Source of the DNA: Candidatus Zhuqueibacterota bacterium
GTDB lineage: Bacteria > BS750m-G25
Direction: 5' to 3'
Assembly (NCBI GenBank): GCA_016783505.1
Contig: JADHWK010000057.1
Coordinates: 1 to 13,802, forward strand
Length of the DNA: 13,802 nucleotides
Below are positions 412-13,802 of the stretch, one piece after another. Below the pieces are notes generated by a model, which was given only the letters and a program-made list of their open reading frames with translations, was not told where the DNA came from and searched no databases. Position 1 is the stretch's first letter; every line of letters begins with the position of its first letter. A program made the translations under genes and the position numbers.

Positions 412-2619
412 TCAGGGCTTTACCACAATTTTCCCTTCACCGGCCTCAGTAAAGTCTCCGATATGGGCGACTCCCGTGATTCCTTTTACCTTCAACGCTT
501 TCAGCAGTTTGTCCTTTCGCTCGGCGGGCAGGGCGATGAGTAGACCACCGGAGGTCTGGGCATCACAGAGGATAAGCCTGCCGGGATGGGGGATACGGTC
601 GTCCCACTGAACGCAATCTGAGACATACTCCAGATTGGAAAGGGTGCCACCGGGAACCACCCCGGCCCCGGCAAGACTTAAGGCTTCTTCAAGCACAGGG
701 ACCCTGCTGAGATATATCACCGCATTCAGGTGACCGCCCCTGGTCATCTCCTTTAAATGACCTAACAGTCCGAAGCCGGTGACATCGGTGCAGGCGTTGG
801 CACCCACCTTCATCATGGCCTCAGAGGCCCCCTGGTTGAGCATTTCCATCACCCCGATAGCTTTGTCCGTCAGTTCCGCCCCGGCAAGGTCCCGTTTCAT
901 AGCGGTGGAGATGATCCCCAATCCTATTGGCTTTGTTAAAATAATGGCATCCCCCGGCTGAGCCCGGTCATTAGTTAGCACCCTATCGGGGTTGATGATT
1001 CCGGTAACCACCAGACCGAATTTGGGCTCGTTATCCTCGACGGTATGACCGCCGAGGATGCTCATTCCAGCCTCAGCCGCCTTATCATGGGCACCTTTCA
1101 AAATCTGATGCAGGACCTCAAGGGGCAGCCTCTTTTCTGGAAACCCGACGATGCTGAGACCGAAGATGGGTTTTCCCCCCATGGCATAGATGTCGCTTAA
1201 GGAGTTGGCAGCGGCAATGGCACCAAAATGATAGGGGTCATCCACCACCGGGGTGAAGAAATCCACTGTCTGAACAATAGCCATGCCATCTCGTAGGCGA
1301 TAGACAGCGGCATCGTCAGCGGTGGTGGTGCCCACTATCACATTGGGGTCTTTAAGGGGCGATAGATGACTGAGCACCGCCTCCAGGGCCTGGGGACGCA
1401 ATTTACAGGCACAACCCAATCCGTGGGTATAATGGGTCAATTTGATGGTTTTCAAATCCGCTACTTGTAGGGTTGGGCCCACAGCCTCCGGGCGCAAGCG
1501 ATTAACTGCATTGGTGATGATGTCAATAGCTCGGTCAATCTCCTCCACAGTATTGGTGCGACCTACTGAAAATCGAATGGTTTGGAAAGCGACATTAAGG
1601 GGAACTTTCATAGCCATAAGCACTGGGGAAGGTTCCGCCAAATCCTCGTGACAGGCAGCACCCGCTGAGGCAGCCACCTCATCCAGTTCGGAAAGCAGGG
1701 TATTGGCATCCAGATCCGGAAAGCTTACGCTGAGGGTATTTGGCAGCCTCTTTTCGGGATGACCGTTAAGCTTGATGTCGGGAAAATTTTTCTTTAACCC
1801 CTCCCACAAATGATCGCGCAGCTTTCGCATATGGGCCGTGTTCTTCTCTAAATCCCCCCCGGCGATCTCGGCTGCCTTGCCCAGTCCGACAATTTCAAGG
1901 ACGTTTTCAGTACCTGCCCTGCGACCCTGCTCGTGATCGGCCCCATGCACGAGGATTTCAATCTTAGTCCCACGCCTGATGTAAAGAGCACCGATTCCCT
2001 TGGGGGCGTAGAATTTGTGTCCGGCTATAGAGAGGAGATCAATACCTAAATCCTCCACCTTAACCGGTATTTTTCCCACCGATTGGGCGGCATCGGTGTG
2101 AAAAATTATCCCATGGCGCCTGGCAATTTTGCTGATCTCAGGGATGGGCTGAATAGTGCCCACTTCATTGTTGGCGTGCATGATGGTGATGAGAATGGTT
2201 TCCGGGGTAATGGTTTTTTCTACGGCTCCAGGGTTGACCATTCCATATTCATCCACCGGGAGATAGGTGACTTTAAAGCCATCACCTTCCAGATATTTAC
2301 ACACATTAATCACCGCTGGATGCTCGATTTGGGAGGTAATAATATGGTTTCCCCGCTGGCGATGGGCTATGGCGACCCCTTTTATGGCAAAGTTATTGGA
2401 TTCGGTGCCGCCGCTGGTAAATATTACCTCATCGGGGTAGCAGCCCAAAAGCTCGGTCAACATCTGGCGGGCTTGCTCCACCGCTCGCTTCGCCTGAACC
2501 CCATACCAGTGGGAACTGGAGGGATTGCCAAAATGTTCCCGTAAGTAAGGGATCATAGCCTCGGCCACCCCCGGATCAATAGGGGTGGTGGCGTTATGAT
2601 CAAGATAAATGGGTTTCAT
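412..2619 (-). CDS. NifS-SelD fusion: cysteine desulfurase-selenophosphate synthetase
   Basis: One 735-aa frame joins two enzymes. Residues 1 to about 380 are a NifS/IscS-type PLP cysteine desulfurase: LDHNATTP near the N-terminus, the PLP lysine in AGHKFYAPKG (Lys202) and the persulfide cysteine in SAGAACHE (Cys323). Residues from about 388 to 735 are a complete selenophosphate synthetase: HGLGCACK carries Cys403 and Lys406, matching Cys17 and Lys20 of E. coli SelD, followed by DDAAVY, AMGGKP, AGGHT, TDVTGFGLLGH and CDAQTSGGLL. The active-site residue is Cys, not Sec. The desulfurase half would mobilise S or Se from Cys/Sec and hand selenide directly to the SelD half, which makes selenophosphate from ATP. 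The ATG at 2619 follows the FmdB stop by 29 nt with only a weak GGGA site, suggesting co-transcription. Both domains look intact, with no frameshift at the junction. Confidence 0.95.
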   Translation of the reverse strand: MKPIYLDHNATTPIDPGVAEAMIPYLREHFGNPSSSHWYGVQAKRAVEQARQMLTELLGCYPDEVIFTSGGTESNNFAIKGVAIAHRQRGNHIITSQIEHPAVINVCKYLEGDGFKVTYLPVDEYGMVNPGAVEKTITPETILITIMHANNEVGTIQPIPEISKIARRHGIIFHTDAAQSVGKIPVKVEDLGIDLLSIAGHKFYAPKGIGALYIRRGTKIEILVHGADHEQGRRAGTENVLEIVGLGKAAEIAGGDLEKNTAHMRKLRDHLWEGLKKNFPDIKLNGHPEKRLPNTLSVSFPDLDANTLLSELDEVAASAGAACHEDLAEPSPVLMAMKVPLNVAFQTIRFSVGRTNTVEEIDRAIDIITNAVNRLRPEAVGPTLQVADLKTIKLTHYTHGLGCACKLRPQALEAVLSHLSPLKDPNVIVGTTTADDAAVYRLRDGMAIVQTVDFFTPVVDDPYHFGAIAAANSLSDIYAMGGKPIFGLSIVGFPEKRLPLEVLHQILKGAHDKAAEAGMSILGGHTVEDNEPKFGLVVTGIINPDRVLTNDRAQPGDAIILTKPIGLGIISTAMKRDLAGAELTDKAIGVMEMLNQGASEAMMKVGANACTDVTGFGLLGHLKEMTRGGHLNAVIYLSRVPVLEEALSLAGAGVVPGGTLSNLEYVSDCVQWDDRIPHPGRLILCDAQTSGGLLIALPAERKDKLLKALKVKGITGVAHIGDFTEAGEGKIVVKP

Positions 2620-4426: not shown

Positions 4427-4801
4427 TTAATGCTCGCATTCGGTTTTGTCAACCCCGTAGCCCTTTCCTGAACCGGGACGGCATAGGCTCTCACCCCCCT
4501 TAAGCTCGCCTTTGAGCAACATGTCAATTGTCTCGTCCACTTTACCAGTTATTCCTAGGACGAGTTGAATATTTTTTTCGTCAAAGAGCATTTGGGCCCG
4601 CTGGCCGGCCCCTCCGGCAATGACGGCATTGATCCCCATTTCGGCGAAGAATTGGGGCAGAAACCCCGGATGATGACCAGGATTGGCGATAACTTCTGTG
4701 TTTACTATTTTGCCCTCGTCGATCTCCACGACCGTGAAAGTTGGACACCTGCCGAAATGGGCGGAAACAAAATCACCGTCTGTAGAAACTGCTATTTTCA
4801 T
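4427..4801 (-). CDS. NifX/NifB-domain (dinitrogenase Fe-Mo cofactor biosynthesis family) protein
   Basis: A 124-aa single-domain member of the Fe-Mo cofactor biosynthesis family (PF02579), which in better-known members (NifX, NafY, ORP protein) binds metal-sulfur clusters. Diagnostic segments are MKIAVSTDGDFVSAHFGRCPTF at the N-terminus, NPGHHPGFLPQFF (40-52), VIAGGAGQRAQ (60-70) and the C-terminal tail with Cys107, GKGYG and the final ECEH. The Cys/His tail is common in short anaerobe members and could bind a metal. A clear AAGGAG site precedes the ATG. It heads a unit with the aminotransferase and follows the DUF169 gene after 172 nt. It lacks the DUF5320 extension seen on its paralogue at 11212-11874. 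Confidence 0.9.
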   Translation of the reverse strand: MKIAVSTDGDFVSAHFGRCPTFTVVEIDEGKIVNTEVIANPGHHPGFLPQFFAEMGINAVIAGGAGQRAQMLFDEKNIQLVLGITGKVDETIDMLLKGELKGGESLCRPGSGKGYGVDKTECEH

Positions 4802-4915
4802 TTGATTCTCCTTTTTTTAACATTGACAAATTAAATTTAACAATATTTAGTTTAATAATCCAGAGAATTCTTGATTTTTAACCTTGATTATAAAAATTTA
4901 TTTTTAATGCAGGGT

Positions 4916-4945
4916 GTAGATGCAAAAGCAGAGCTTTTGTACTAC
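4916..4945. repeat. Hairpin between DUF169 and NifX-like genes
   Basis: GTAG..CAAAAGC-AGA-GCTTTTG..CTAC forms a 7-bp core stem (4923-4929 with 4933-4939) extended by a second 4-bp GTAG/CTAC stem across a small internal loop. It is 28 nt past the DUF169 stop. The rest of this 172-nt gap is very AT-rich. The hairpin could end the upstream transcript, or be a dispersed palindromic repeat. Confidence 0.45.
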
Positions 4946-4973
4946 GGGGAATTTTTAATTTTGTTCTTTATCT

Positions 4974-5576
4974 TTATAAGAAAGTTTTCATTAGGACATA
5001 AGGCACGCCGACAACCAATCTGTCTCTAGGAATTTTACCGTAAAGACGGCTGTCGTCGCATCCGAAGGAGATCGAAATCTGTTGTGATAGATAGCTCCTC
5101 ACTGCAATGTTTCCACAAACGGACATTAGGCAGGAAACATCAGCATGTATGTTTTTACCCAACCGGGTTTGATGGTATTTAATCAGCCTCATGACCTGCC
5201 CTGGCTGGAGGTAAGAAATTAAAATATCAGGCAGTTCGTATGTGTTGAGCCCGATAGCGACAAGACGCTCCTTTAATCTGGGAACGCTTTCTATCATAGA
5301 CTTAACAACCCCTTCTGGTAGGTTTCGTTTCTCCTTGCATTCCTGGATAATCCTATTCTGGGCATATTTGTCCCAACCAAAAGCGTATTTTGCTCCTAAG
5401 CAGCTAATAGATGATTGGGTCAAGAAAACGCTTGAAGTTTTTGCCTTATGTAGCGCTTCGCAAAAACGAATATCCGTAGGAACCGCAGCACTTCCTATGT
5501 CTGGCATTTCCTTGTAAAATTTAACCCTCACCCATGACCCACCGAACTTTCTCGCAAACTTTTTTATATTCTCCAT
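4974..5576 (-). CDS. DUF169-family protein, 200 aa
   Basis: Matches the general layout of the uncharacterised DUF169 (PF02596) family: PTDIRFCEALHKAK (33-46), LTQSSISCLGAKYAFG (52-67), HADVSCLMSVCG (144-155) and SFGCDDSR (170-177). Conserved cysteines at 39, 59, 149, 154 and 173 suggest metal or cluster binding, but no function is established. AGAGGA lies about 7 nt before the ATG. It follows the MIP18-like gene by 33 nt, so it likely belongs to the MinD ATPase transcript. No signal peptide or membrane segment is evident. Confidence 0.75.
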   Translation of the reverse strand: MENIKKFARKFGGSWVRVKFYKEMPDIGSAAVPTDIRFCEALHKAKTSSVFLTQSSISCLGAKYAFGWDKYAQNRIIQECKEKRNLPEGVVKSMIESVPRLKERLVAIGLNTYELPDILISYLQPGQVMRLIKYHQTRLGKNIHADVSCLMSVCGNIAVRSYLSQQISISFGCDDSRLYGKIPRDRLVVGVPYVLMKTFL

Positions 5577-5609
5577 TATTGTCCTCTCATAACCGGTCTT
5601 TTTAAGAAC

Positions 5610-5897
5610 TTATTGACCTTCAGCCAAGATCTTTTCCAATTGCTCAGCGTGAATGAAACCTTCTACATTTATCCTCAAATCCTTTACACCCTCTACGCCC
5701 TTCACGGCCTGCTGAATAGCAAACCCCAGTTGAAATGCCAGGGGACATACCGGGGAAGAAGGCCTGAAAGTCAAGGAGACCCGGCCATTCTTCTCAATCT
5801 TCAGGTTTCGTATCAGCTCCATCCTCACGACATTAAGACCCGTTTCAGGGTCAATTACCTTTTCTAAGAAAGTTATTATTATCTGCTCAAGTTTCAT
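5610..5897 (-). CDS. MIP18/DUF59-family protein (PaaD/SufT-like)
   Basis: A 95-aa MIP18-family domain (DUF59), used in Fe-S cluster assembly and insertion in SufT, PaaD and eukaryotic CIAO2 proteins. It shows VIDPETGLNVV (14-24), the family's 'DPE' turn, VSLTFRPSSPVCPL (40-53) with conserved Cys51, and a C-terminal segment running VKDLRINV. The start at 5897 lies 1 nt after the stop of the MinD-like ATPase (TAG-T-ATG), with GGAAAG upstream. A TTG at 5921 would overlap the ATPase and is less likely. Pairing of an MIP18 domain with a MinD/Mrp-type ATPase is a recurrent theme in Fe-S assembly (Mrp proteins fuse the two), supporting a shared cluster-delivery role. Confidence 0.85.
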   Translation of the reverse strand: MKLEQIIITFLEKVIDPETGLNVVRMELIRNLKIEKNGRVSLTFRPSSPVCPLAFQLGFAIQQAVKGVEGVKDLRINVEGFIHAEQLEKILAEGQ

Positions 5898-5898
5898 A

Positions 5899-6765
5899 CT
5901 ATGGGCTTTCCAAAAACCCAATGATATTTTCCCAGATATTTCTGATTTCCTTGGTCACTACCCCGTCCGAGTATTCGATCACGGTTTTTCTGTGCACCAT
6001 GGCTTCGGTGACGATGGTGTCAAAGTGTATTCTACCTATAAAACCAAGCCCCTTGATGCGGCAGTAGGCCTCAATTTCCCGGGTCATCCCAGGATTTATG
6101 TCGAACTTATTTACACAGATCAGCGTTTTTATTCCAAAATGGGCTGCCAGGCTCACTACACGCTCCATATCATGCACACCGGAGAGGGAGGGTTCGGTCA
6201 CTACCAGTACACAGTCGGCCCCGGTGATCGAGGAGATAACCGGACAGCCGATACCGGGGGCCCCGTCCACGATGATGAGATCCTTTCCTTCTTTCTCGGC
6301 GATCAACCTGGCTTGATGTCGGACTAACGTCACCAGCTTACCCGAGTTTTCCTGCGCTATCCCCAGCCTGGCGTGCACCATGGGGCCGAATCGTGTCTCG
6401 GAGATAAACCATTCACCGGAGGTATTCTCCTGAAAATCTATGGCCTTTTCAGGACAAAAATATACGCACACCCCGCAGCCTTCACATGAAATCTTGTCCA
6501 CGACAAAATCATCGCTGATGGCATCGAAACGGCAGACTTCAAGGCATTTTCCGCATTCTGTGCACGAATCTTCATTAATGGATGCGGCCTTTCCCCCGGC
6601 GAAATCCTCCCTCAATTTTACCCTGGGCTCAAGGATAAGATGCAGATCAGCCGCATCCACGTCGCAATCGGCCATTACCTTGTTTTTTGCCAACGCAGCG
6701 AAACAGGCCGTTATGCTGGTCTTGCCAGTTCCGCCCTTGCCGCTGATTATGATTAGCTCTTTCAC
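5899..6765 (-). CDS. MinD/ParA-superfamily ATPase with inserted 2[4Fe-4S] ferredoxin domain (copy 1)
   Basis: A 288-aa P-loop ATPase. The deviant Walker A is SGKGGTGKT (8-16), and VVTEPSLSG with the VDGAPGIGCP segment marks the switch regions. A bacterial-type ferredoxin domain is inserted between: Cys68/71/74/78 and Cys94/97/100/104, each CxxCxxCxxxC. The same architecture occurs in the paired MinD ATPases of ORP complexes and in cytosolic Fe-S carrier-type ATPases. The start codon is GTG at 6765 with only a weak upstream GAAGA. It overlaps no gene and is followed 1 nt later by the MIP18-like gene. The two ATPase copies share the fold but differ clearly in sequence, consistent with a heterodimer. 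Confidence 0.93.
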   Translation of the reverse strand: MKELIIISGKGGTGKTSITACFAALAKNKVMADCDVDAADLHLILEPRVKLREDFAGGKAASINEDSCTECGKCLEVCRFDAISDDFVVDKISCEGCGVCVYFCPEKAIDFQENTSGEWFISETRFGPMVHARLGIAQENSGKLVTLVRHQARLIAEKEGKDLIIVDGAPGIGCPVISSITGADCVLVVTEPSLSGVHDMERVVSLAAHFGIKTLICVNKFDINPGMTREIEAYCRIKGLGFIGRIHFDTIVTEAMVHRKTVIEYSDGVVTKEIRNIWENIIGFLESP

Positions 6766-6831
6766 TCTTCAATCATCCGATTCTTCATATATGAGGAATC
6801 AATTTTTCGTAACTATTCAGTTGCAAAGACT

Positions 6832-6948
6832 CTAAGACACCAAGATTAGAACATAATAAAGAAACTGATAATTTCAGACCTTGTCAAATTGAGTCACACT
6901 GATAGGGGTTTAAATCTAATATTCCTTCGTTGTGCCTTGGTGTCTTAG
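6832..6948. repeat. Inverted pair of CTAAGACACCAAG repeats
   Basis: CTAAGACACCAAG at 6832-6844 recurs as its exact complement CTTGGTGTCTTAG at 6936-6948, 91 nt apart, with partial similarity extending outward (TTCAG on the left, CTGAA on the right). The pair occupies most of the 150-nt gap between the two ATPase genes. Its right arm lies inside the 3' end of the upstream ATPase frame. This resembles a small dispersed palindromic or non-autonomous element. Confidence 0.6.
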
Positions 6949-7788
6949 TGGCTGAACTATTTTTCTTTCTATCCTGGCAAAGAGCGATTGGAAGCGCTGT
7001 TTGTATTCCGGCATAATCTCGATGATGGGGATTCCCTTTGAATAGGCCTCGGCTATTGTTCTTTCGGTTTTTATCTCCATCAGAACGGGAATATTCTCTT
7101 GATTACAGTATTCGATTACCCCTTTATCCCCCACGTCCGAGCGGTTGATAACCACCCCAAAGGGGATTTTAAGGGTTCGGATCATCCCTACGGCGAGCAC
7201 CAGATCATTGAGACCAAATGGGGTTGGTTCGGTCACCAAAAGGGTAAAATCGCTCCCTTTCACTGCCTCGATGACCGGGCAGGAGGTTCCCGGTGGGGCG
7301 TCTATGATTGTCGTTTTTTCCCCGTTGATATGTTTCTTCACCGCCCTGATAAGAGGCGGTGACATGGCCTCGCCAATGCGCAGCCTCCCATGAATGAATT
7401 CCATTTCCCCCGCCAGCCCCTTCTCCACTACGCCCATCTCACGGTCTTTATCTGAAATCGCATCTTCCGGACATACCAGCGAACACCCGCCGCAGCCGTG
7501 ACAGAGTTCAGGAAAGGTCAGGACATTTTTTTTGATAACCACGATGGCACTATATTGGCATATCTGGCCGCATTTGCCGCAGTAAGTGCAGATGGATTTA
7601 TCAACTTCAGGAACCGGGATTCCGATGATTCTCGTTTCCTGAAAATCGGGTTTTAAAAATATGTGGGCGTTGGGTTCCTCAACATCGCAGTCGAGAAACA
7701 GAACATCTTCCTTTAAAGAAAGGGCGAGATTGGTAGCTACGGTGGTCTTGCCCGTCCCGCCCTTTCCACTGGCAACAGAGATTACCAT
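6916..7788 (-). CDS. MinD/ParA-superfamily ATPase with inserted 2[4Fe-4S] ferredoxin domain (copy 2)
   Basis: A 290-aa partner of the ATPase at 5899-6765. Walker A is SGKGGTGKTT (7-16), IDAPPGTSCPV is the switch segment, and LLVTEPTPFG follows. The inserted ferredoxin has Cys67/70/73/77 and Cys96/99/102/106. Adjacent pairs of such ATPases are typical of ORP loci in anaerobes, where they are thought to work with NifX-like proteins on a metal-sulfur cofactor. The ATG is 3 nt after the stop of the 64-aa gene. The last dozen or so residues (VQPLRHQGTTKEY) are encoded by one arm of an inverted repeat, so the native C-terminus may have been replaced. Confidence 0.93.
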   Translation of the reverse strand: MVISVASGKGGTGKTTVATNLALSLKEDVLFLDCDVEEPNAHIFLKPDFQETRIIGIPVPEVDKSICTYCGKCGQICQYSAIVVIKKNVLTFPELCHGCGGCSLVCPEDAISDKDREMGVVEKGLAGEMEFIHGRLRIGEAMSPPLIRAVKKHINGEKTTIIDAPPGTSCPVIEAVKGSDFTLLVTEPTPFGLNDLVLAVGMIRTLKIPFGVVINRSDVGDKGVIEYCNQENIPVLMEIKTERTIAEAYSKGIPIIEIMPEYKQRFQSLFARIERKIVQPLRHQGTTKEY

Positions 7789-7791
7789 ATT

Positions 7792-7986
7792 TCATCCAAA
7801 ATATCGCTTGATCAATCTCTCGGCATAGTTTTTAAGGAAATTATAGAGGATTTCACTTTTACAATCCTCTGCAAATTTACGGCAGACGCTTTCCTTCAGA
7901 TTAATCGCTTGTTCCTTCGATTTGCAGGCCTTAATCTTTTTTTCTATGCCTGCCCAATGTTTCCTAACCTTTTCTTCCGGTCTCAT
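7792..7986 (-). CDS. Small conserved-looking protein, 64 aa, unknown
   Basis: I do not recognise a family. The protein is Lys/Glu-rich and probably helical, with three cysteines (CKSKEQAINLKESVCRKF and AEDCKSE). Its ATG overlaps the stop of the upstream DUF1858 gene as ATGA, and its stop is 3 nt before the MinD ATPase. This tight packing argues for a real, translationally coupled gene. It may be an accessory or adaptor to the ATPase. Confidence 0.7.
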   Translation of the reverse strand: MRPEEKVRKHWAGIEKKIKACKSKEQAINLKESVCRKFAEDCKSEILYNFLKNYAERLIKRYFG

Positions 7987-8189
7987 CTCAGTTGCTTGTT
8001 CAGTTCTTCCACTAACTGCTCGATAGTCTCATCATCCATACCCTTTTGTTGGGCGTTGTCCTCCAGTGTTCCCCATACCGGTGCTCCGCAGGCAATACAT
8101 GTGATGCCCTTTTCCATGAGAAATCGGACCGATTGCGGATACACTTGGATCAGGTCTTCAATGAAGATGTTCTTGTTAATCCTGACCAT
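7983..8189 (-). CDS. DUF1858-domain protein, 68 aa
   Basis: Matches the DUF1858 (PF08984) pattern: an N-terminal helix, then VYPQSVRFLMEKGITCIACG (17-35), with the CxxC pair Cys31/Cys34, then a C-terminal helix. The family is small, soluble and found mostly in anaerobes. A redox or cluster-binding role is suggested by the CxxC but unproven. The ribosome-binding site is weak. It is coupled to the following 64-aa gene through an ATGA overlap. Confidence 0.85.
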   Translation of the reverse strand: MVRINKNIFIEDLIQVYPQSVRFLMEKGITCIACGAPVWGTLEDNAQQKGMDDETIEQLVEELNKQLR

Positions 8190-8205
8190 GAGTCTATCTG
8201 TTAAG

Positions 8206-8231
8206 AAGTGGGGTCAAAAACAACCCCACTT
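8206..8231. terminator. Strong hairpin between DUF5320 and DUF1858 genes
   Basis: AAGTGGGGT and ACCCCACTT form a perfect GC-containing 9-bp stem with an 8-nt loop (CAAAAACA on the plus strand). It lies in the 69-nt gap between the two genes. On the minus strand it is followed by CTTAACAG, a poor U tract, so partial termination or an RNA stability/processing element fits better than a full stop. Confidence 0.55.
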
Positions 8232-8258
8232 TTGCTCACCCTTCACCTTTAGCTGTTC

Positions 8259-8657
8259 CTACTTTTTGGGAGATGTTCCGATCTCCTTGATGCGGTTATT
8301 GATGGCGTCGAGCTGACCTTTCAGGTATTCAGCCTGGCTCCTCAGTTGATCAACCTCTTGTTGAGTAGTCATCTGCGGTGTGAAAGCTGCTCCGCCATAT
8401 CCCACAGGATAGGGAGCCATTCCATAGCCTTGAACAGGGGGAATCCCATAACCGGCATACGGCATCCCGCCAAAGCCAAAATATGGATACCCAGTGAAGC
8501 CCCGAAGGCTCCTGCCGCGACCACGACCGAACCCCAACCCCAGTCGGGGAGATACCGGATTTGCGAATCCGGGCGCAGGATAACCGGCGCAGTATCCAGC
8601 AGCTCTACCCGTCATTGGACCCATTCCCATTGGTCCAGTTCCGTTTCCACCTGGCAT
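8259..8657 (-). CDS. DUF5320-like Gly/Met/Tyr-rich protein with C-terminal coiled coil
   Basis: A 132-aa low-complexity protein. It starts MPGGNGTGPMGMGPMTGR, the DUF5320-type N-terminal signature, then has a Gly-, Arg- and Tyr-rich middle. The last ~40 residues form a predicted coiled coil (EVDQLRSQAEYLKGQLDAIN, then RIKEIG). The same C-terminal module occurs in the proteins at 11212-11874 and 11871-12236. I chose the ATG at 8657 because AAGGAGGT lies about 8 nt upstream; a GTG at 8666 would overlap that site. Such proteins commonly neighbour NifX-like and MinD-like genes in anaerobes; function is unknown. It ends 69 nt before the DUF1858 gene. Confidence 0.8.
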   Translation of the reverse strand: MPGGNGTGPMGMGPMTGRAAGYCAGYPAPGFANPVSPRLGLGFGRGRGRSLRGFTGYPYFGFGGMPYAGYGIPPVQGYGMAPYPVGYGGAAFTPQMTTQQEVDQLRSQAEYLKGQLDAINNRIKEIGTSPKK

Positions 8658-8716
8658 GAAAATCACCTCCTTCCATTAAGCTTTTGTATAATTGGTTCAG
8701 ATATTCTGCAACGTTC

Positions 8717-9133
8717 TTACCATTTTCTCCCCCTTCCCCGGCCCTGTCTTTTTCCCCGGCCCCTTCCCATGCCACCCCTACGGCCCATCCCTATCCGTTC
8801 AAAGGGGCCTGGTACGTGCTGAATGGGTGAGAGGGGAAAACCCCCTGTCCTCGTCAGAGGTGGGGGAAAGGCCGGAGCGCCCATCGGTTCAACAGTTGGC
8901 GAGTATGGGAGCTTCCCCATTTCAATTTCATCTTGGTCTGTTGATTCCGCTGCTATGATGGGCACCTGGTATTGGAGGGCGTTGTTGGGGCAGGTGTTAA
9001 GGCAAGCCCCGCAGTCATTGCATTTGGAGCCATCTATCTCGGCTTTGCCGTCTTCAAGATAGATGGCCCCCCAGGGGCAGGTGTCCACACAGGCCCCACA
9101 GCCGGTGCACGATTGCAGGTCAATCCAAATCAT
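8717..9133 (-). CDS. 2[4Fe-4S] ferredoxin with Gly/Arg-rich C-terminal tail
   Basis: A 138-aa protein. Residues 1 to about 55 are a bacterial ferredoxin with Cys9/12/15/19 and Cys38/41/44/48, both CxxCxxCxxxCP. Residues from about 55 are a Pro-rich linker and a tail ending in GRGKRQGRGRGRKW. Electron transfer is the known role of the domain. The tail is unusual for a ferredoxin and resembles the Gly/Arg stretches of the DUF5320-type neighbours, suggesting interaction with RNA, acidic partners or the same complex. The ATG follows the zinc-ribbon stop by 1 nt (TAA-T-ATG), with GAGGGA upstream. Confidence 0.88.
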   Translation of the reverse strand: MIWIDLQSCTGCGACVDTCPWGAIYLEDGKAEIDGSKCNDCGACLNTCPNNALQYQVPIIAAESTDQDEIEMGKLPYSPTVEPMGAPAFPPPLTRTGGFPLSPIQHVPGPFERIGMGRRGGMGRGRGKRQGRGRGRKW

Positions 9134-9134
9134 A

Positions 9135-9353
9135 TTATTCCCTCACCATCTTGGCCCCGCATTTGGGGCAGCTTTGCTTGTAACAGGGAACCGCCCTTTG
9201 ATGGGGTGCCGTGGCGCCGCAACTGGGGCAGACACAATTCCCTCCCAGCCCTGATCCCTGGCCTCCCATGCGTCCCCTGCCGCCGCCCCGTCCTAAACCA
9301 CGTCCCGTTCCCGGACCGGCACCGGCGGGTCCTGTTCCGTTTCCTCTCGGCAT
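9135..9353 (-). CDS. Gly/Arg-rich small zinc-ribbon protein, DUF5320-type N-terminus
   Basis: A 72-aa protein. It begins MPRGNGTGPAGAGPGTGRG, the same N-terminal signature as the protein at 8259-8657, then a Gly-rich stretch, then a cysteine domain: CVCPSCG (40-46), PCYKQSCPKCGAKM (56-69). Six cysteines (40, 42, 45, 57, 62, 65) could hold a zinc or Fe-S site. The start at 9353 has AAGGAGGT 7-8 nt upstream; an in-frame ATG at 9371 would sit before that site and is rejected. It heads a unit with the ferredoxin and DUF5320 genes. Confidence 0.82.
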   Translation of the reverse strand: MPRGNGTGPAGAGPGTGRGLGRGGGRGRMGGQGSGLGGNCVCPSCGATAPHQRAVPCYKQSCPKCGAKMVRE

Positions 9354-9389
9354 TTTGGTCACCTCCTTCAATTAATAGATAAACATCTA

Positions 9390-9415
9390 GCCCGAAGGTC
9401 TCCTGACCGAAGGGC
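9390..9415 (-). promoter_or_regulatory. Leader hairpin upstream of the zinc-ribbon/ferredoxin unit
   Basis: On the minus strand GCCC(TTC)GGTC-AGGA-GACC(TTC)GGGC can fold into a stem with a 3x3 internal loop, ending 36 nt before the zinc-ribbon start. It lies in the 216-nt gap between the FmdB stop and that start, which has no other gene that I can support. It could be a leader structure or partial terminator. Confidence 0.3.
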
Positions 9416-9569
9416 AATAGATTTATAAAAGTTTGGGGTTTCGGTGAGACACCTTAACCCTAGTGAGATAGGTTACCTCCTTCACTACCTCTCAGAATTT
9501 CTAAAACTAATTGATGACAACTGAATAAGCAATTAGCTATCAGCCCTTTTCTGATTCCTTACTTCGAAA

Positions 9570-9824
9570 TTATTTGCCACAACACCGCTTCGGATTGTCG
9601 CAGGGATTGGTGATCCCACAGCATTCGGCTTGTTCGGGGGTTTTTCTGCGATAATCAGTTTCATAAAACCCCGATCCCTTAAAAATGATTCCGGTTCCCC
9701 CGCTGATTATCCTCCTGACTTCACCTTCACATCTCGGGCAATACTTTAGGGGGTATTCAGTTATCTTTTGAAACCTGTCAAATTGATAACCACAGTTTAA
9801 ACATTGATATTCATAGGTAGGCAT
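9570..9824 (-). CDS. FmdB-family zinc-ribbon protein, 84 aa
   Basis: Starts MPTYEYQCLNCGYQFDRFQ with Cys8/11 and Cys29/32 (CPRC), then the IISGGTGIIFKGSGFYETDY segment typical of longer FmdB-like proteins. The C-terminus adds a Cys-rich tail with Cys68/69/75/81/82 and ends RCCGK, reminiscent of metal-binding tails. The ATG is 1 nt after the MBL-gene stop, with GGAG about 8 nt upstream, so it is co-transcribed with the MBL lipoprotein. Its paralogue lies at 2649-2849. Function is not established; a regulatory or cofactor role is only inferred. Confidence 0.88.
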   Translation of the reverse strand: MPTYEYQCLNCGYQFDRFQKITEYPLKYCPRCEGEVRRIISGGTGIIFKGSGFYETDYRRKTPEQAECCGITNPCDNPKRCCGK

Positions 9825-9825
9825 T

Positions 9826-10662
9826 TTATTCTCCTATTGTGATTGTCCTTCCAACCCCCAATTCCAAGAAATTTTCCCTATATGCTTCCCGGAATAGCTG
9901 TCTGGCTCTATCCCCGGAGCAGTGAGAGGGGCCAGCCTGGAGAACCCCCAGTTTTTTGAAGTCAGCGATAATTCGTCTTATTTCTCCCTCGCTCGTTCCA
10001 CCCAGATGGAAACCGCCCATAACCAACACGGGGTTTCCCCCAACCAATCGCTTTGATTTATTCACTATTTTTACCACTCCCGGATGGGCACAGCCGGTTA
10101 TGATCACGGGTCCTTTTGGGGTTTTTAGTATCAGCGATTGTTCCTTTATCCATACGCCGAGCTCACCGGTGGAATACACATTATCGAAAAGCTCTCCGGA
10201 CTTGTGCACCTCTTCGACCTTGGCACCAAAAGATCTTACTTCATCTTTGAAACTTAGCGGAAAGGATTTCGGCAGGTACACGGTTACCCCTGAGTTTCGC
10301 TTCAGAAAACCGGATAGCCCCCCCACATGGTCACCGTGGATGTGGGACAACACCACCGCATCTATTTCCTTGGGTTTGATTTTAAGTTGCTCCATGTTAT
10401 ATAGCAGGGTAGGACTATCCCCGCCGGTGTCGAACAGTATGTTTTTTCCCCCAAACCTTATTAGACATGAGAATCCCCAGGCAGTCCTTAGTGAACTGTC
10501 ATAGGGATTGTTGTCGTAGATGATAATAATTGTCAAATTTTCCAGAGACATGTTTGCCTTTTTATAATGATCTTTCGGATTCCTTTCTCCACCGGCGCCA
10601 CAGTTGAGGAGGACCACCAATGATAGAGCAACCATAGTCAAAAAGGCTATCTTTTCCATCAT
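9826..10662 (-). CDS. MBL-fold metallohydrolase, predicted lipoprotein
   Basis: A 278-aa metallo-beta-lactamase-fold protein of the COG1237-like type. Core motifs: WGFSCLIRF (62-70), LFDTGGD (76-82), SHIHGDHVGGL (106-116) with the HxHxDH metal site, TGCAHPG with His193, and GGFHLGG with His219. The N-terminus is hydrophobic with a lipobox VVLLNC (Cys21), so it is probably exported and lipid-anchored; most family members are cytoplasmic. ATG at 10662 or the adjacent one at 10659 could both be used. It is preceded by a Fur-box-like dyad and followed by the FmdB gene. The substrate is unknown; pterin-related phosphate-synthase annotations exist for the family but should not be assumed. Confidence 0.85.
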   Translation of the reverse strand: MMEKIAFLTMVALSLVVLLNCGAGGERNPKDHYKKANMSLENLTIIIIYDNNPYDSSLRTAWGFSCLIRFGGKNILFDTGGDSPTLLYNMEQLKIKPKEIDAVVLSHIHGDHVGGLSGFLKRNSGVTVYLPKSFPLSFKDEVRSFGAKVEEVHKSGELFDNVYSTGELGVWIKEQSLILKTPKGPVIITGCAHPGVVKIVNKSKRLVGGNPVLVMGGFHLGGTSEGEIRRIIADFKKLGVLQAGPSHCSGDRARQLFREAYRENFLELGVGRTITIGE

Positions 10663-10680
10663 TTCCGTTTCCCATTCTAT

Positions 10681-10695
10681 TGAAAATTATTTTCA
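10681..10695. promoter_or_regulatory. Fur-box-like 7-1-7 palindrome
   Basis: TGAAAATTATTTTCA is a perfect 7-1-7 inverted repeat differing from the classical Fur/PerR-type core (TGATAATNATTATCA) by one symmetrical base pair. It lies between the Fur-family gene and the MBL gene, ending 19 nt before the MBL start. A -35-like TTTACC and a -10-like TTCAAT or TAGAAT flank it on the minus strand, so binding would likely block transcription of mbl-fmdB. Confidence 0.65.
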
Positions 10696-10710
10696 GTAAA
10701 GGGTAAAAAA

Positions 10711-11154
10711 TTAATCTGAGGCGCATTGTTTGCAATATCCAAATAGTGTGAGCTCATGATCGATTATTATGAACCTGTGTTCTTGGGATAATTTTTCTGC
10801 CAGATGGTTTAGCTGGGGAAAGAAATCGGATTCGAAATCTATTAGTTTCCCACATTTCACACAGACGAGATGGTGGTGATGGGTATCCTTATTTCCGTTC
10901 GTGATGTTAAGCTCATAACGATAGGTTCCCTCACCAAAATCAAATTTTTTAATCAGCCTCATTTGGGTAAGGGCGCTAAGGGTACGATAAATGGTCGCCA
11001 GGGATACTCTTGACCTTCTTTTTTGCAGAAATCGGTAAAGGCCCTCAGCGGTAAAATGGGGTTCGACTTTCTGTAATGAATCTGTGATAATCGACCGCTC
11101 GAGGGTTACCCTGTAGCCCTTTATTCCCAGAGCATCCATTAACCGGTTTGCCAT
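10711..11154 (-). CDS. Fur-family metalloregulator
   Basis: A 147-aa Fur/PerR/Zur-type repressor. The N-terminal winged-helix ends in the recognition helix VSLATIYRTLSAL (50-62). The C-terminal dimerisation domain has THHHHLVCVKCG (91-102) with Cys98/Cys101 and CKQC (141-144) with Cys141/Cys144, the structural zinc site. His-rich regulatory metal ligands are present, but Fe, Zn, Ni, Mn or peroxide specificity cannot be decided here. The ATG at 11154 follows GGGGAAG at good spacing; a TTG at 11169 is possible but weaker. It is 57 nt after the NifX-fusion gene and directly upstream of a Fur-box-like site, so it may control the MBL/FmdB genes. Confidence 0.93.
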   Translation of the reverse strand: MANRLMDALGIKGYRVTLERSIITDSLQKVEPHFTAEGLYRFLQKRRSRVSLATIYRTLSALTQMRLIKKFDFGEGTYRYELNITNGNKDTHHHHLVCVKCGKLIDFESDFFPQLNHLAEKLSQEHRFIIIDHELTLFGYCKQCASD

Positions 11155-11211
11155 TTTTGTCTTCCCCAAACTGAACTTCAGATTTTTATCTTGGGAATCC
11201 CCGCCATTTTA

Positions 11212-11874
11212 CTATTCCCCTTTTTTCTTTCCCAGCTCGTTTATCCTCTTGCTAATGGCATCCAGTTGCTGCTTCATAAGATCGGCCTGCTGCTTTAATA
11301 GCTGAAGTTCCTGATCCGGGGTTGTTGGACCTGCACCCGGTGCCGCAGGCCCCGTTCCCGGAACGCCGGGCATGGCACCGTAGCCCACCTCAGGCAATCC
11401 ACCCCCGCCCATTCCTCGACCCATCCCTCTGCCCATTCCTCGCCCCATACCCATTCCGAAACCGGGTCCCATAGGCTGTCCCTGGCCGCCTGCCTGGCCA
11501 GGCGTGCCCGCACCCATCCCGAAATGGGCCTGCACATTGGGCTGGGCGGTGGGCTTAAGCTGACCGGATTTGTACCTTTGAATGGCATCCTGCACCGATC
11601 CTACGACGCCGATAATTACCTGAACACCGGCGGCTTGTAAGGTCTGGAAGGCGTTGGGGCCGCAGCTCCCGGTGAGCACCGTCTCGGCACCCTTGTCGGT
11701 AACAAACTGGGCCGACTGGATCCCAGCCCCTCCCATCGCGGCAACATTGGGGTTTTCAACGGCCTCAAATTGCAGCGTGTCGGGATCTACGAAGATGAAA
11801 TATGGACATCTTCCAAATCGGGGGTCAACCTGGGCCGCCAGATCAGTCCCTGCTGAGGTAATGACGATTTTCAT
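11212..11874 (-). CDS. NifX-domain protein fused to a DUF5320-type Gly/Met-rich coiled-coil tail
   Basis: A 220-aa two-part protein. Residues 1 to about 110 are a NifX-type Fe-Mo cofactor biosynthesis domain: MKIVITSAGTDLAAQVDPRFGR, CPYFIFVDP, NPNVAAMGGAGIQSAQ and TGSCGPNAF (Cys71). Residues about 115-185 are Gly/Pro/Met-rich, including four GMGR-type repeats, and residues about 185-220 are a coiled coil (TPDQELQLLKQQADLMKQQL then ISKRINELG). The tail matches the C-terminal module of the proteins at 8259-8657 and 11871-12236. Its ATG overlaps the upstream gene's stop as ATGA. The NifX domain is expected to bind a metal-sulfur cluster; the tail likely mediates assembly with its DUF5320 neighbours. 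Confidence 0.92.
   Translation of the reverse strand: MKIVITSAGTDLAAQVDPRFGRCPYFIFVDPDTLQFEAVENPNVAAMGGAGIQSAQFVTDKGAETVLTGSCGPNAFQTLQAAGVQVIIGVVGSVQDAIQRYKSGQLKPTAQPNVQAHFGMGAGTPGQAGGQGQPMGPGFGMGMGRGMGRGMGRGMGGGGLPEVGYGAMPGVPGTGPAAPGAGPTTPDQELQLLKQQADLMKQQLDAISKRINELGKKKGE
11408..11455. repeat. 12-nt tandem repeats encoding MGRG units
   Basis: Four 12-nt units (CCCATTCCTCGA, CCCATCCCTCTG, CCCATTCCTCGC and a diverged CCCATACCCATT on the plus strand) encode the GMGR repeats of the NifX-fusion protein on the minus strand. The units are similar but not identical, so the tract could vary in copy number between strains. Confidence 0.7.
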
Positions 11875-12236
11875 TTTTTCTCTCCTTCTAATTCCTTCAT
11901 TCGATCCTTAATACCCTCCAGTTGGTCTTCTAAGATCTCAGCCTGTCCTTTCAGCATTTCCAGTTCCTGTTCCGGTGTGCTCTGGGCGGCTCCCCAGGGA
12001 TCGTAAGGGGTGGGAAATCCAGGCATAGGAAAGCCCGGAGACTGGAACGCATAGGGGACCTGCCCGCTCTGCCAGAGGGCATCCATCTGCGGAGTGGGCC
12101 AATAGCCGTACATCAAATATTGTGCAGCGGGGCCAAGCCCTGTGGGACTCCTGCCGATCCAACCCGGGCTGAACCCGAACCGCATCCATCCAGGCAGCCC
12201 AGTCATTCTGTACCACCACCGATGTCTGTTACCCAT
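11871..12236 (-). CDS. DUF5320-like protein with Trp/Pro/Gly-rich N-terminus and coiled-coil C-terminus
   Basis: A 121-aa protein. The N-terminus (WWYRMTGLPGWMRFGFSPGW, then SPTGLGPAAQYL) is a recurrent pattern in small anaerobe proteins next to NifX-like genes. The C-terminal ~35 residues (STPEQELEMLKGQAEILEDQ, then LEGIKDRMKELEG) are the coiled-coil module shared with two neighbours. A strong AGGAGGT site precedes the ATG. It is the first gene downstream of the sigma-54-type promoter and is coupled to the NifX-fusion gene by an ATGA overlap. Function is unknown. Confidence 0.8.
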   Translation of the reverse strand: MGNRHRWWYRMTGLPGWMRFGFSPGWIGRSPTGLGPAAQYLMYGYWPTPQMDALWQSGQVPYAFQSPGFPMPGFPTPYDPWGAAQSTPEQELEMLKGQAEILEDQLEGIKDRMKELEGEKK

Positions 12237-12294
12237 TTCTATACCTCCTTTTTACTAAATATCCTTTCGATTTTAAAGTCTCCTTAGTAAATAG

Positions 12295-12310
12295 GCAATC
12301 TTTATGCCAA
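12295..12310 (-). promoter_or_regulatory. Sigma-54 (-24/-12) promoter candidate
   Basis: The minus strand reads TTGGCATAAAGATTGC. This fits the consensus TTGGCAC-N5-TTGC with the exact spacing (GG at 12308-12307, GC at 12296-12295, 10 nt between). Only one consensus position (T for C after TTGGCA) differs. The predicted start point is near 12284, leaving a leader of about 48 nt before the DUF5320 gene at 12236. ORP operons in Desulfovibrio are sigma-54 controlled, which matches this location. Confidence 0.75.
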
Positions 12311-12386
12311 CTTATCCTTATCATCCCAATTGCCAAATATCAAAGCTAATACATCTAATCTGGTTCAAAAAGGGATTCATTGGGTG

Positions 12387-12420
12387 TTTCACATTTGAAA
12401 TGTTTATTTCAACATTGAAA
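12387..12420. promoter_or_regulatory. Tandem TTTCA-N4-TGAAA dyads, candidate enhancer (UAS)
   Basis: TTTCA-CATT-TGAAA (12387-12400) and TTTCA-ACAT-TGAAA (12407-12420) are two near-identical dyads whose centres are 20 bp apart, close to two helical turns. They lie about 100-135 bp upstream of the predicted sigma-54 start point, a usual distance for binding sites of NtrC-type activators. The whole block is itself a 36-bp imperfect palindrome with GTTTCA/TGAAAC ends. Between the TonB receptor stop and the DUF5320 gene (248 nt) I see no gene. Confidence 0.6.
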
Positions 12421-12484: not shown

Positions 12485-13802
12485 TTACTTATAAAACCGC
12501 ACTTTCAGTCCGCCATAGATAATGCGACCGGTATAAGGTGCGTACATAAAGGCAGCATCATCAGGGTGCCTCTCCTCTTGAACATAGTCAAATATATTTT
12601 TCGCACCCATAAAGATAGTAGTTCCATTTGAAAAACTTCTGGCTATTTTGGCATTCACCACCCAGAAATCAGGAGTATGCACAATTTTACTCTCGGGTAG
12701 TCCTATATCCTCTTCCTTGCAATAATCAATATACATTCTACCGGTATAATCAGCGTCTAATACCAGATCCCAGTGGCCCGGGTTATAGGTGAGCTCGACA
12801 CCTCCGGTAATCTTTGGGACCCGAGGAATATATTTGCTGTCTTCTGCATATTCTGGATGATTCTCTACCCAGTCTTCTCGCTCATTTTCATATTGAGCAT
12901 CGGTATAAGCCAGATTGAGGTCAAGGACAAGGTCACGTACCAGAAGTGTTCTGGATCCCAGTTCTATCCCCTGGGTATAAGCATCACCTATGTTGCCCCA
13001 TTCATAAGTGTAACCCAAATTTTTCGATGTTTCGCTGGCATCGGTAAACCCAATCTTGTCTTGCAGATTAGTACGAAAGAGATTTGCATTCACGGTAAAC
13101 CTCTCGGCCGAGTAATCTGCTCCCAGATTAAAGCTTACCGATTTTTCAGGCTTCAAACCGGCTGGTTTGTTAACCCTGGGTGAGCCGCTACAGAGATGCA
13201 AATCCTCGCTAAAGCCATAGGGAACCCGGAAACCTGTCCCTACGCTGGTTCGCAAGATAAAATTGGGAGACGCCTTAAGCCTTACTGCCATTCTGGGACT
13301 AAAGGCTTGTTCACCGTAGTCAAGCTTAATCCTTTGTTGGGGAGCAATCGTACCGGAACCACCAAAATCATCTTTGGAGCGGTGGATGTCATACCTGGCC
13401 CCCAGCACCAGTTCCAGAGCATCACTTAAGGAAACTTCGTCCTGAAGATAAGCCCCCCCGTCATCGGCGTGCTTTTCACTTTCGGAGGTGTAGGTGCCGC
13501 CATAATTGGGATCCGTATCATCCACAATGACATACCTGCCAGTTTCTTCCAGCTTATTGTGGGAATACTGGACTCCCCCTAATAGACGGTGGCTTCCGAG
13601 GGGATGAGAATAGTTGAAATCCACCACATAAAGGTTCTCGTCGGCAAGATAAGGCTGCATTTCGTCTATCGTAGGCAGCGTTCCATGAATGCCTTCATAG
13701 TCGCCCAGAAAGGCATCGTTGGTGGCACTGCGGTTATGGAAAGTATAGCCGAGGTTAAGGGTAATCTCATTGCCATAGCTAAACCTTTTCCTGTATCCAA
13801 TT
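12485..13802 (-). CDS. TonB-dependent outer-membrane receptor, C-terminal part (5' end outside window)
   Basis: The frame is open to the right edge, giving 438 visible residues of a beta-barrel. Recurrent features: aromatic-rich alternating strands (LGYTFHNRSA, DFNYSHPLGSHRLLGGVQYSH), the receptor segment FSPRMAVRLKASPNFILRTS followed by VGTGFRVPYGF, PEKSVSFNLGADY, then NIFDY near the end, and a last strand IIYGGLKVRFYK. These match BtuB/CirA/FepA-like TonB-dependent receptors, which import siderophores, cobalamin or other metal chelates across the outer membrane. Plug domain, TonB box and signal peptide are not visible. The substrate cannot be assigned. The gene ends 64 nt before the tandem dyads and shares strand with the downstream sigma-54 unit, but likely not its promoter. 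Confidence 0.92.
   Translation of the reverse strand, partial: IGYRKRFSYGNEITLNLGYTFHNRSATNDAFLGDYEGIHGTLPTIDEMQPYLADENLYVVDFNYSHPLGSHRLLGGVQYSHNKLEETGRYVIVDDTDPNYGGTYTSESEKHADDGGAYLQDEVSLSDALELVLGARYDIHRSKDDFGGSGTIAPQQRIKLDYGEQAFSPRMAVRLKASPNFILRTSVGTGFRVPYGFSEDLHLCSGSPRVNKPAGLKPEKSVSFNLGADYSAERFTVNANLFRTNLQDKIGFTDASETSKNLGYTYEWGNIGDAYTQGIELGSRTLLVRDLVLDLNLAYTDAQYENEREDWVENHPEYAEDSKYIPRVPKITGGVELTYNPGHWDLVLDADYTGRMYIDYCKEEDIGLPESKIVHTPDFWVVNAKIARSFSNGTTIFMGAKNIFDYVQEERHPDDAAFMYAPYTGRIIYGGLKVRFYK

Follow-up and report, generated by a model that had tools for sequence, protein, structure and literature searches.

Predicted sigma-54 promoter with tandem upstream dyads in front of an iron-sulfur/NifX gene cluster, and its candidate activator

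Overview

The region at 12295–12420 of the window (the whole stretch of DNA analysed, which is the entire contig C74, 13,802 bp) is best read as the sigma-54 promoter of an iron-sulfur/NifX gene cluster, with an enhancer-binding protein (EBP) of the PAS-AAA+-Fis-HTH type, encoded on contig C48 of the same assembly, acting from two dyads upstream. We assign this reading a probability of about 0.87. The activator-dependent switch is conserved in evolution and the type of switch is already known; new are the dyad motif, the activator proposed for it and the occurrence of both in a range of uncultured phyla. A defined motif and a candidate activator become available for a widespread iron-sulfur cluster. 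As the same motif occurs in other phyla, the regulon can be searched for, and the Cys-rich PAS domains of the EBP hint at the signal.

Gene content of the window

The assembly comprises 2.5 Mb in 89 contigs and is ~60% complete. All assigned genes of the window lie on the minus strand, and they constitute an iron-sulfur/orange-protein-like cluster. The first gene of the operon (11871..12236, with its ATG at 12236 and a Shine-Dalgarno sequence, AGGAGG, at 12244..12249, all minus strand) encodes a DUF5320-type tail protein of 121 aa (PF17253, E 2e-5, just below the curated cut-off), and is followed by a gene (11212..11874, minus) encoding a NifX-type (Nitro_FeMo-Co) domain fused to DUF5320 (PF02579, E 7e-25; PF17253, E 2e-7). 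Further cluster genes occupy 4427..11169 on the minus strand, encoding Fur, metallo-beta-lactamase fold, Zn-ribbon, two DUF5320, ferredoxin and DUF1858 proteins, as well as two ferredoxin-inserted MinD/Mrp ATPases, FeS_assembly_P, DUF169 and a second NifX protein. Beyond the second NifX gene lie an aminotransferase gene and then, at the far end of the cluster (412–2619, minus), a fusion of a NifS-type cysteine desulfurase with selenophosphate synthetase (SelD). On the other side of the promoter region is the C-terminal part (438 residues; PF00593 positions 66–436) of a TonB-dependent receptor, encoded at 12485..13801 on the minus strand and cut at the contig end.

The -24/-12 element

The predicted -24/-12 element, TTGGCATAAAGATTGC (12310–12295, minus strand), has the GG-N10-GC spacing, and an exact TGGCA-N6-TTGC at 12309–12295 places this core in the TGGCA...TTGC context by which sigma-54 promoters are recognized. 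The original prediction had stated that the site fits the consensus with correct spacing, which is borne out. TGGCA-N7-TGC has a single exact copy across the window, at the TTGGCATAAAGATTGC site, while over both strands of the 2.5-Mb genome TGGCA-N6-TTGC occurs 16 times as against 4 times for a reversed control pattern. The element scores 13.6 of 15.8 on our own scale, lower than the 14.1–15.8 of its orthologues, and TGGCACGGATTTTGCA-type elements are present at the corresponding place in the orthologous loci. By standard sigma-54 geometry transcription would start at 12283..12285 on the minus strand, ~12 nt past the -12 GC. A search for RpoN (PF04552, PF04963) in the genome, which is ~60% complete, gave no hit; rpoN is present in 47 of 59 sampled genomes.

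A second -24/-12-like match, TGGTAAGAACGTTGCA (8708–8723, minus, 13.8 of 15.8), lies immediately in front of the DUF5320 gene that starts at 8666, where it overlaps the end of the ferredoxin gene and has no adjoining dyads. It is a possible internal sigma-54 promoter.

Tandem dyads in the window and in the genome

Between the stop codon of the TonB receptor (12485) and the -24 element are two exact copies of TTTCA-N4-TGAAA, the only ones in the window. The proximal dyad, TTTCACATTTGAAA (12387..12400), is 91 bp upstream of the -24 element and conserved in orthologous promoters, and the distal dyad, TTTCAACATTGAAA (12407..12420), is 111 bp upstream; neither is assigned a strand, both are predicted EBP sites, and both fall within the ~80–200 bp at which upstream activator sites are expected. 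Read along the minus strand, the order is the end of the receptor gene, TTTCAATGTTGAAA, 6 bp, TTTCAAATGTGAAA, 77 bp, TGGCATAAAGATTGC, AGGAGG and ATG. The dyad centres are exactly 20 bp apart, just as first described, and with +1 near 12284 they would lie at ~-110 and ~-130, in agreement with the earlier estimate of about 100–135 bp upstream.

The dyad has 12 exact sites in the 2.5-Mb genome. A scan for the tandem pair, which the original prediction had called for, returned the window locus only, and at the observed density two dyads so close together are expected by chance ~4e-4 times per genome (our own arithmetic). Since none of the other exact dyads in the genome has a second dyad close by and only one, on contig C27, has a -24/-12 match within ~350 bp (a weak one), these remaining copies look like chance sites. 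Contigs C25 and C41 share a start sequence of ~130 bp containing TTTCA-N4-TGAAA (L055 1–150 and L056 1–150), which is probably a repeated element.

In unbiased scans of 386 sampled genomes, exact tandem dyads turned up in one other genome and the combination of a dyad with a promoter at two other places, and no match lay at a NifX cluster. The sole other exact tandem pair (L182 1501–1533) belongs to a genome of 9 Mb, where it adjoins the gene for an EBP response regulator.

Orthologous promoters in other bacteria

An alignment of four NifX proteins, used as the query against 84,980 species genomes, yielded 80 loci from many uncultured phyla (an alignment of eight proteins was too divergent to serve as the query). 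Strong -24/-12 elements, defined as those scoring ≥14 of 15.8 within 2 kb upstream of NifX, were detected at 16 of the 80 loci on the forward strand; the reverse strand gave 1 such locus, the downstream side 3, and shuffled sequences 1.8 on average. For exact TTTCA-N4-TGAAA the corresponding figures were 10 upstream, 1 downstream and 0.35 in shuffles. Most of the 16 loci with a strong element also have dyads, of the TTTCA or TTGCA variant, ~87–220 bp further upstream: i) L063, L064 and L076 have a dyad 87–89 bp above a TGGCACxGAAATTGCA-type element, ii) L065, L078 and L094 have two or three dyads each, at ~-200, -181 and -120, and iii) L058, L071, L074, L097 and L116 have related dyads, with TTGCA instead of TTTCA in several. 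Absence of the dyads from orthologous promoters had been named beforehand as an outcome that would speak against the prediction; promoters from WOR-3 and Cloacimonadota possess the same dyads, above -24/-12 elements stronger than that of the window.

In a set of 19 promoters, which takes in the window and two from genomes G023 and G029, 15 exact copies of TTKCA-N4-TGMAA were counted against 0.09 expected from shuffles, the TTKCA generalisation having been made after the sequences were seen. Neighbouring dyads in this set are spaced 18–21, 31–33 or 60–65 bp apart, with one outlier at 52. Since these distances tend to be whole multiples of ~10.5 bp (R 0.66, p ~0.003, the related loci not being fully independent), the helical-phase arrangement noted for the window in the original prediction holds across species. 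The majority of the 80 NifX loci lack a promoter of this kind, many being fronted by a Fur gene instead, so the association of promoter and NifX is a trait of part of the family only.

At one Poribacteria locus (L133 382–493), three or four TTTCA-type dyads, two of them GTTTCAATTTTGAAAC, follow each other in 20-bp steps and then at 58 bp; they lie ~2 kb upstream of NifX and have no strong -24/-12 element close by.

The candidate activator

Eleven of the 80 loci, and also the genomes G023, G029 and G034, have an EBP with PAS, AAA+ and Fis-type HTH domains next to the cluster, and most of these cluster-linked EBPs carry the PAS motif C-x2-[IV]F-x4-C-x3-C-[PA]-L. Among loci with enough upstream sequence, a Cys-PAS EBP is a neighbour in 7 of the 10 dyad loci vs 4 of the 56 others (Fisher p 4e-5), and a Fur gene is upstream in 2 of the 10 vs 38 of the 56 (p 0.01).

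The original prediction had pointed out that the window holds no activator gene, which should be elsewhere or nearby, and an EBP matching this family was indeed found on contig C48. The genome encodes eight full sigma-54 activators. The C48 EBP, with GAFTGA, two PAS domains and HTH_8, is the only one with the Cys-PAS motif, in two copies, and provides the genome with a candidate cognate EBP that has GAFTGA. In a maximum-likelihood tree it is nested among the cluster-linked EBPs (support 93/91 for ten rows and 95/96 for the inner eight), apart from the seven other EBPs of its genome, and its recognition helix, ISRTTLWRK, differs by at most one residue from the helices at TTTCA-dyad loci. Because tree, recognition helix and gene order agree, the C48 EBP is most likely the cognate activator, as judged from sequence comparison. 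Together with the conserved orthologous promoters, this putative activator supports the earlier view that the elements form a complete activator-dependent promoter.

Contig C48 (5,260 bp) carries the genes for the EBP, Fur and FeoB, followed by a TonB-receptor gene that is cut at the contig end after 168 residues, which include plug positions 3–38. This fragment has the same orientation as the receptor fragment in the window (the last 438 residues), and the two are colinear and non-overlapping on one receptor of locus L057, C48 matching 42–174 and the window 425–761; the gene for that L057 receptor adjoins a NifX cluster. The order in L097 is EBP, Fur, FeoB, sigma-54 element and NifX cluster, and in L064 EBP, FeoB and Fur are divergent from the NifX cluster. 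In view of the colinear fragments and of the L097 and L064 neighbourhoods, C48 probably lies next to the window on its upstream side, across a gap of ~0.5–0.75 kb, although no end overlap between C48 and C74 was found. The activator gene would then probably be a few kb upstream, in the order EBP-Fur-FeoB-TonB receptor-promoter-DUF5320-NifX. A second contig, C55, also ends within a receptor barrel, although it did not match the receptor of L057.

Alternative explanations

With Fur genes in the window operon and on C48, and a Fur gene fronting the cluster in many related loci, the dyads might instead be operators for the Fur-family regulators of the cluster or for another repressor, the -24/-12 match being incidental. 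We regard this as very improbable: the dyad is unlike the usual Fur or PerR boxes, 8 of the 10 dyad loci with enough upstream sequence have no Fur gene within 2.5 kb, only 2 of the 40 Fur-fronted loci have dyads, and a suitably placed -24/-12 element accompanies the dyads in nearly every promoter that has them. As the dyads track the EBP neighbour and run against the Fur gene, the Fur-operator reading was rejected. Similarly little credence is due to the idea that the dyads are unrelated to the promoter and form, as a terminator or other RNA hairpin, the 3' end of the transcript of the upstream TonB receptor. They do begin ~65 bp past the stop codon of the receptor gene, and folding of the tandem dyads as RNA gives a single long hairpin (z ~-3.2 to -3.7), but such a hairpin is automatic for two copies of one palindrome, and a similar distance from dyad to -24 element is kept in other loci. 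This terminator reading was likewise rejected, since no terminator-like site with a T run was found and the dyads of L063, L064 and L076 separate divergently transcribed genes, a position in which no upstream gene could end at them.

A further possibility leaves the sigma-54 promoter real and changes its activator, which would be another EBP of this genome or one encoded in the missing 40%. The genome is incomplete and eight EBPs are present in it, and at L059, L060, L078 and L089 promoter and dyads, some of them weak, occur with no full EBP in the flank examined; nevertheless, among the genome's EBPs membership of the cluster-linked clade, the Cys-PAS motif and a matching recognition helix are found in the C48 EBP only, and we consider a different activator unlikely.

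Proposed mechanism and comparison with known systems

Under the preferred reading, with the C48 EBP as activator, sigma-54 RNA polymerase would sit on TTGGCATAAAGATTGC in a closed complex, and EBP dimers would occupy both TTTCA-N4-TGAAA dyads, which, being two helical turns apart, present the same face of the DNA. The bound dimers may then assemble into an ATPase ring, which would loop to the polymerase, contact it via the GAFTGA loop and thus drive promoter opening. Direct observations are the DNA elements and how they are conserved, as well as the family and gene association of the activator, and we infer from them the binding, looping and activation steps.

In Desulfovibrio vulgaris Hildenborough, control of the orp1 and orp2 operons involves sigma-54, IHF and the EBP DVU2106; DVU2106 binds palindromes, and the EBP site of orp2 is at -88 (PMC3897727). 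Targets of DVU2106 are listed in PMC4641369. A sigma-54 promoter and upstream palindromic EBP sites, both of them predicted in the window, are common to both systems. The EBP gene is beside the cluster in orp, whereas in the genome of the window it is on another contig, probably an adjacent one. NifX-type proteins together with ferredoxin-inserted MinD ATPases, as expected of an orp-type system, are encoded in the window cluster, and the orp operons DVU2103-2105 and DVU2107-2109 encode NifX-type and MinD/Mrp-type ATPase proteins like those of the window. In contrast to the two divergent orp operons, the window has one operon with two helical-phase dyads; a divergent pair transcribed from one region was not found there, the receptor gene running in the same direction as the cluster. 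Also unlike orp are the DUF5320 genes, the nearby FeoB, TonB receptor and Fur genes, and an EBP with two Cys-rich PAS domains. Promoters of the NifA/NtrC type have, as here, a -24/-12 element, paired helical-phase palindromes and an AAA+ GAFTGA activator with a Fis-type HTH, but the half-site of the window, TTTCA/TGAAA, differs from theirs, as does the activator subfamily.

The Cys-rich PAS domains, together with the iron-related neighbours (FeoB, Fur, TonB receptor and Fe-S ATPases), suggest that the EBP may sense iron, Fe-S or redox state. More tentatively, and at somewhat less than even odds, the EBPs with the Cys-PAS motif over several uncultured phyla could be dedicated iron/Fe-S/redox sensors that switch the NifX/DUF5320/MinD cluster via TTKCA-N4-TGMAA, having replaced, or been replaced by, Fur in other lineages. 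Across L057–L136, a Fur-family gene directly precedes many NifX clusters, at the place where others have a Cys-PAS EBP and a sigma-54 promoter, and an exchange of regulators at one position before the NifX clusters is suggested.
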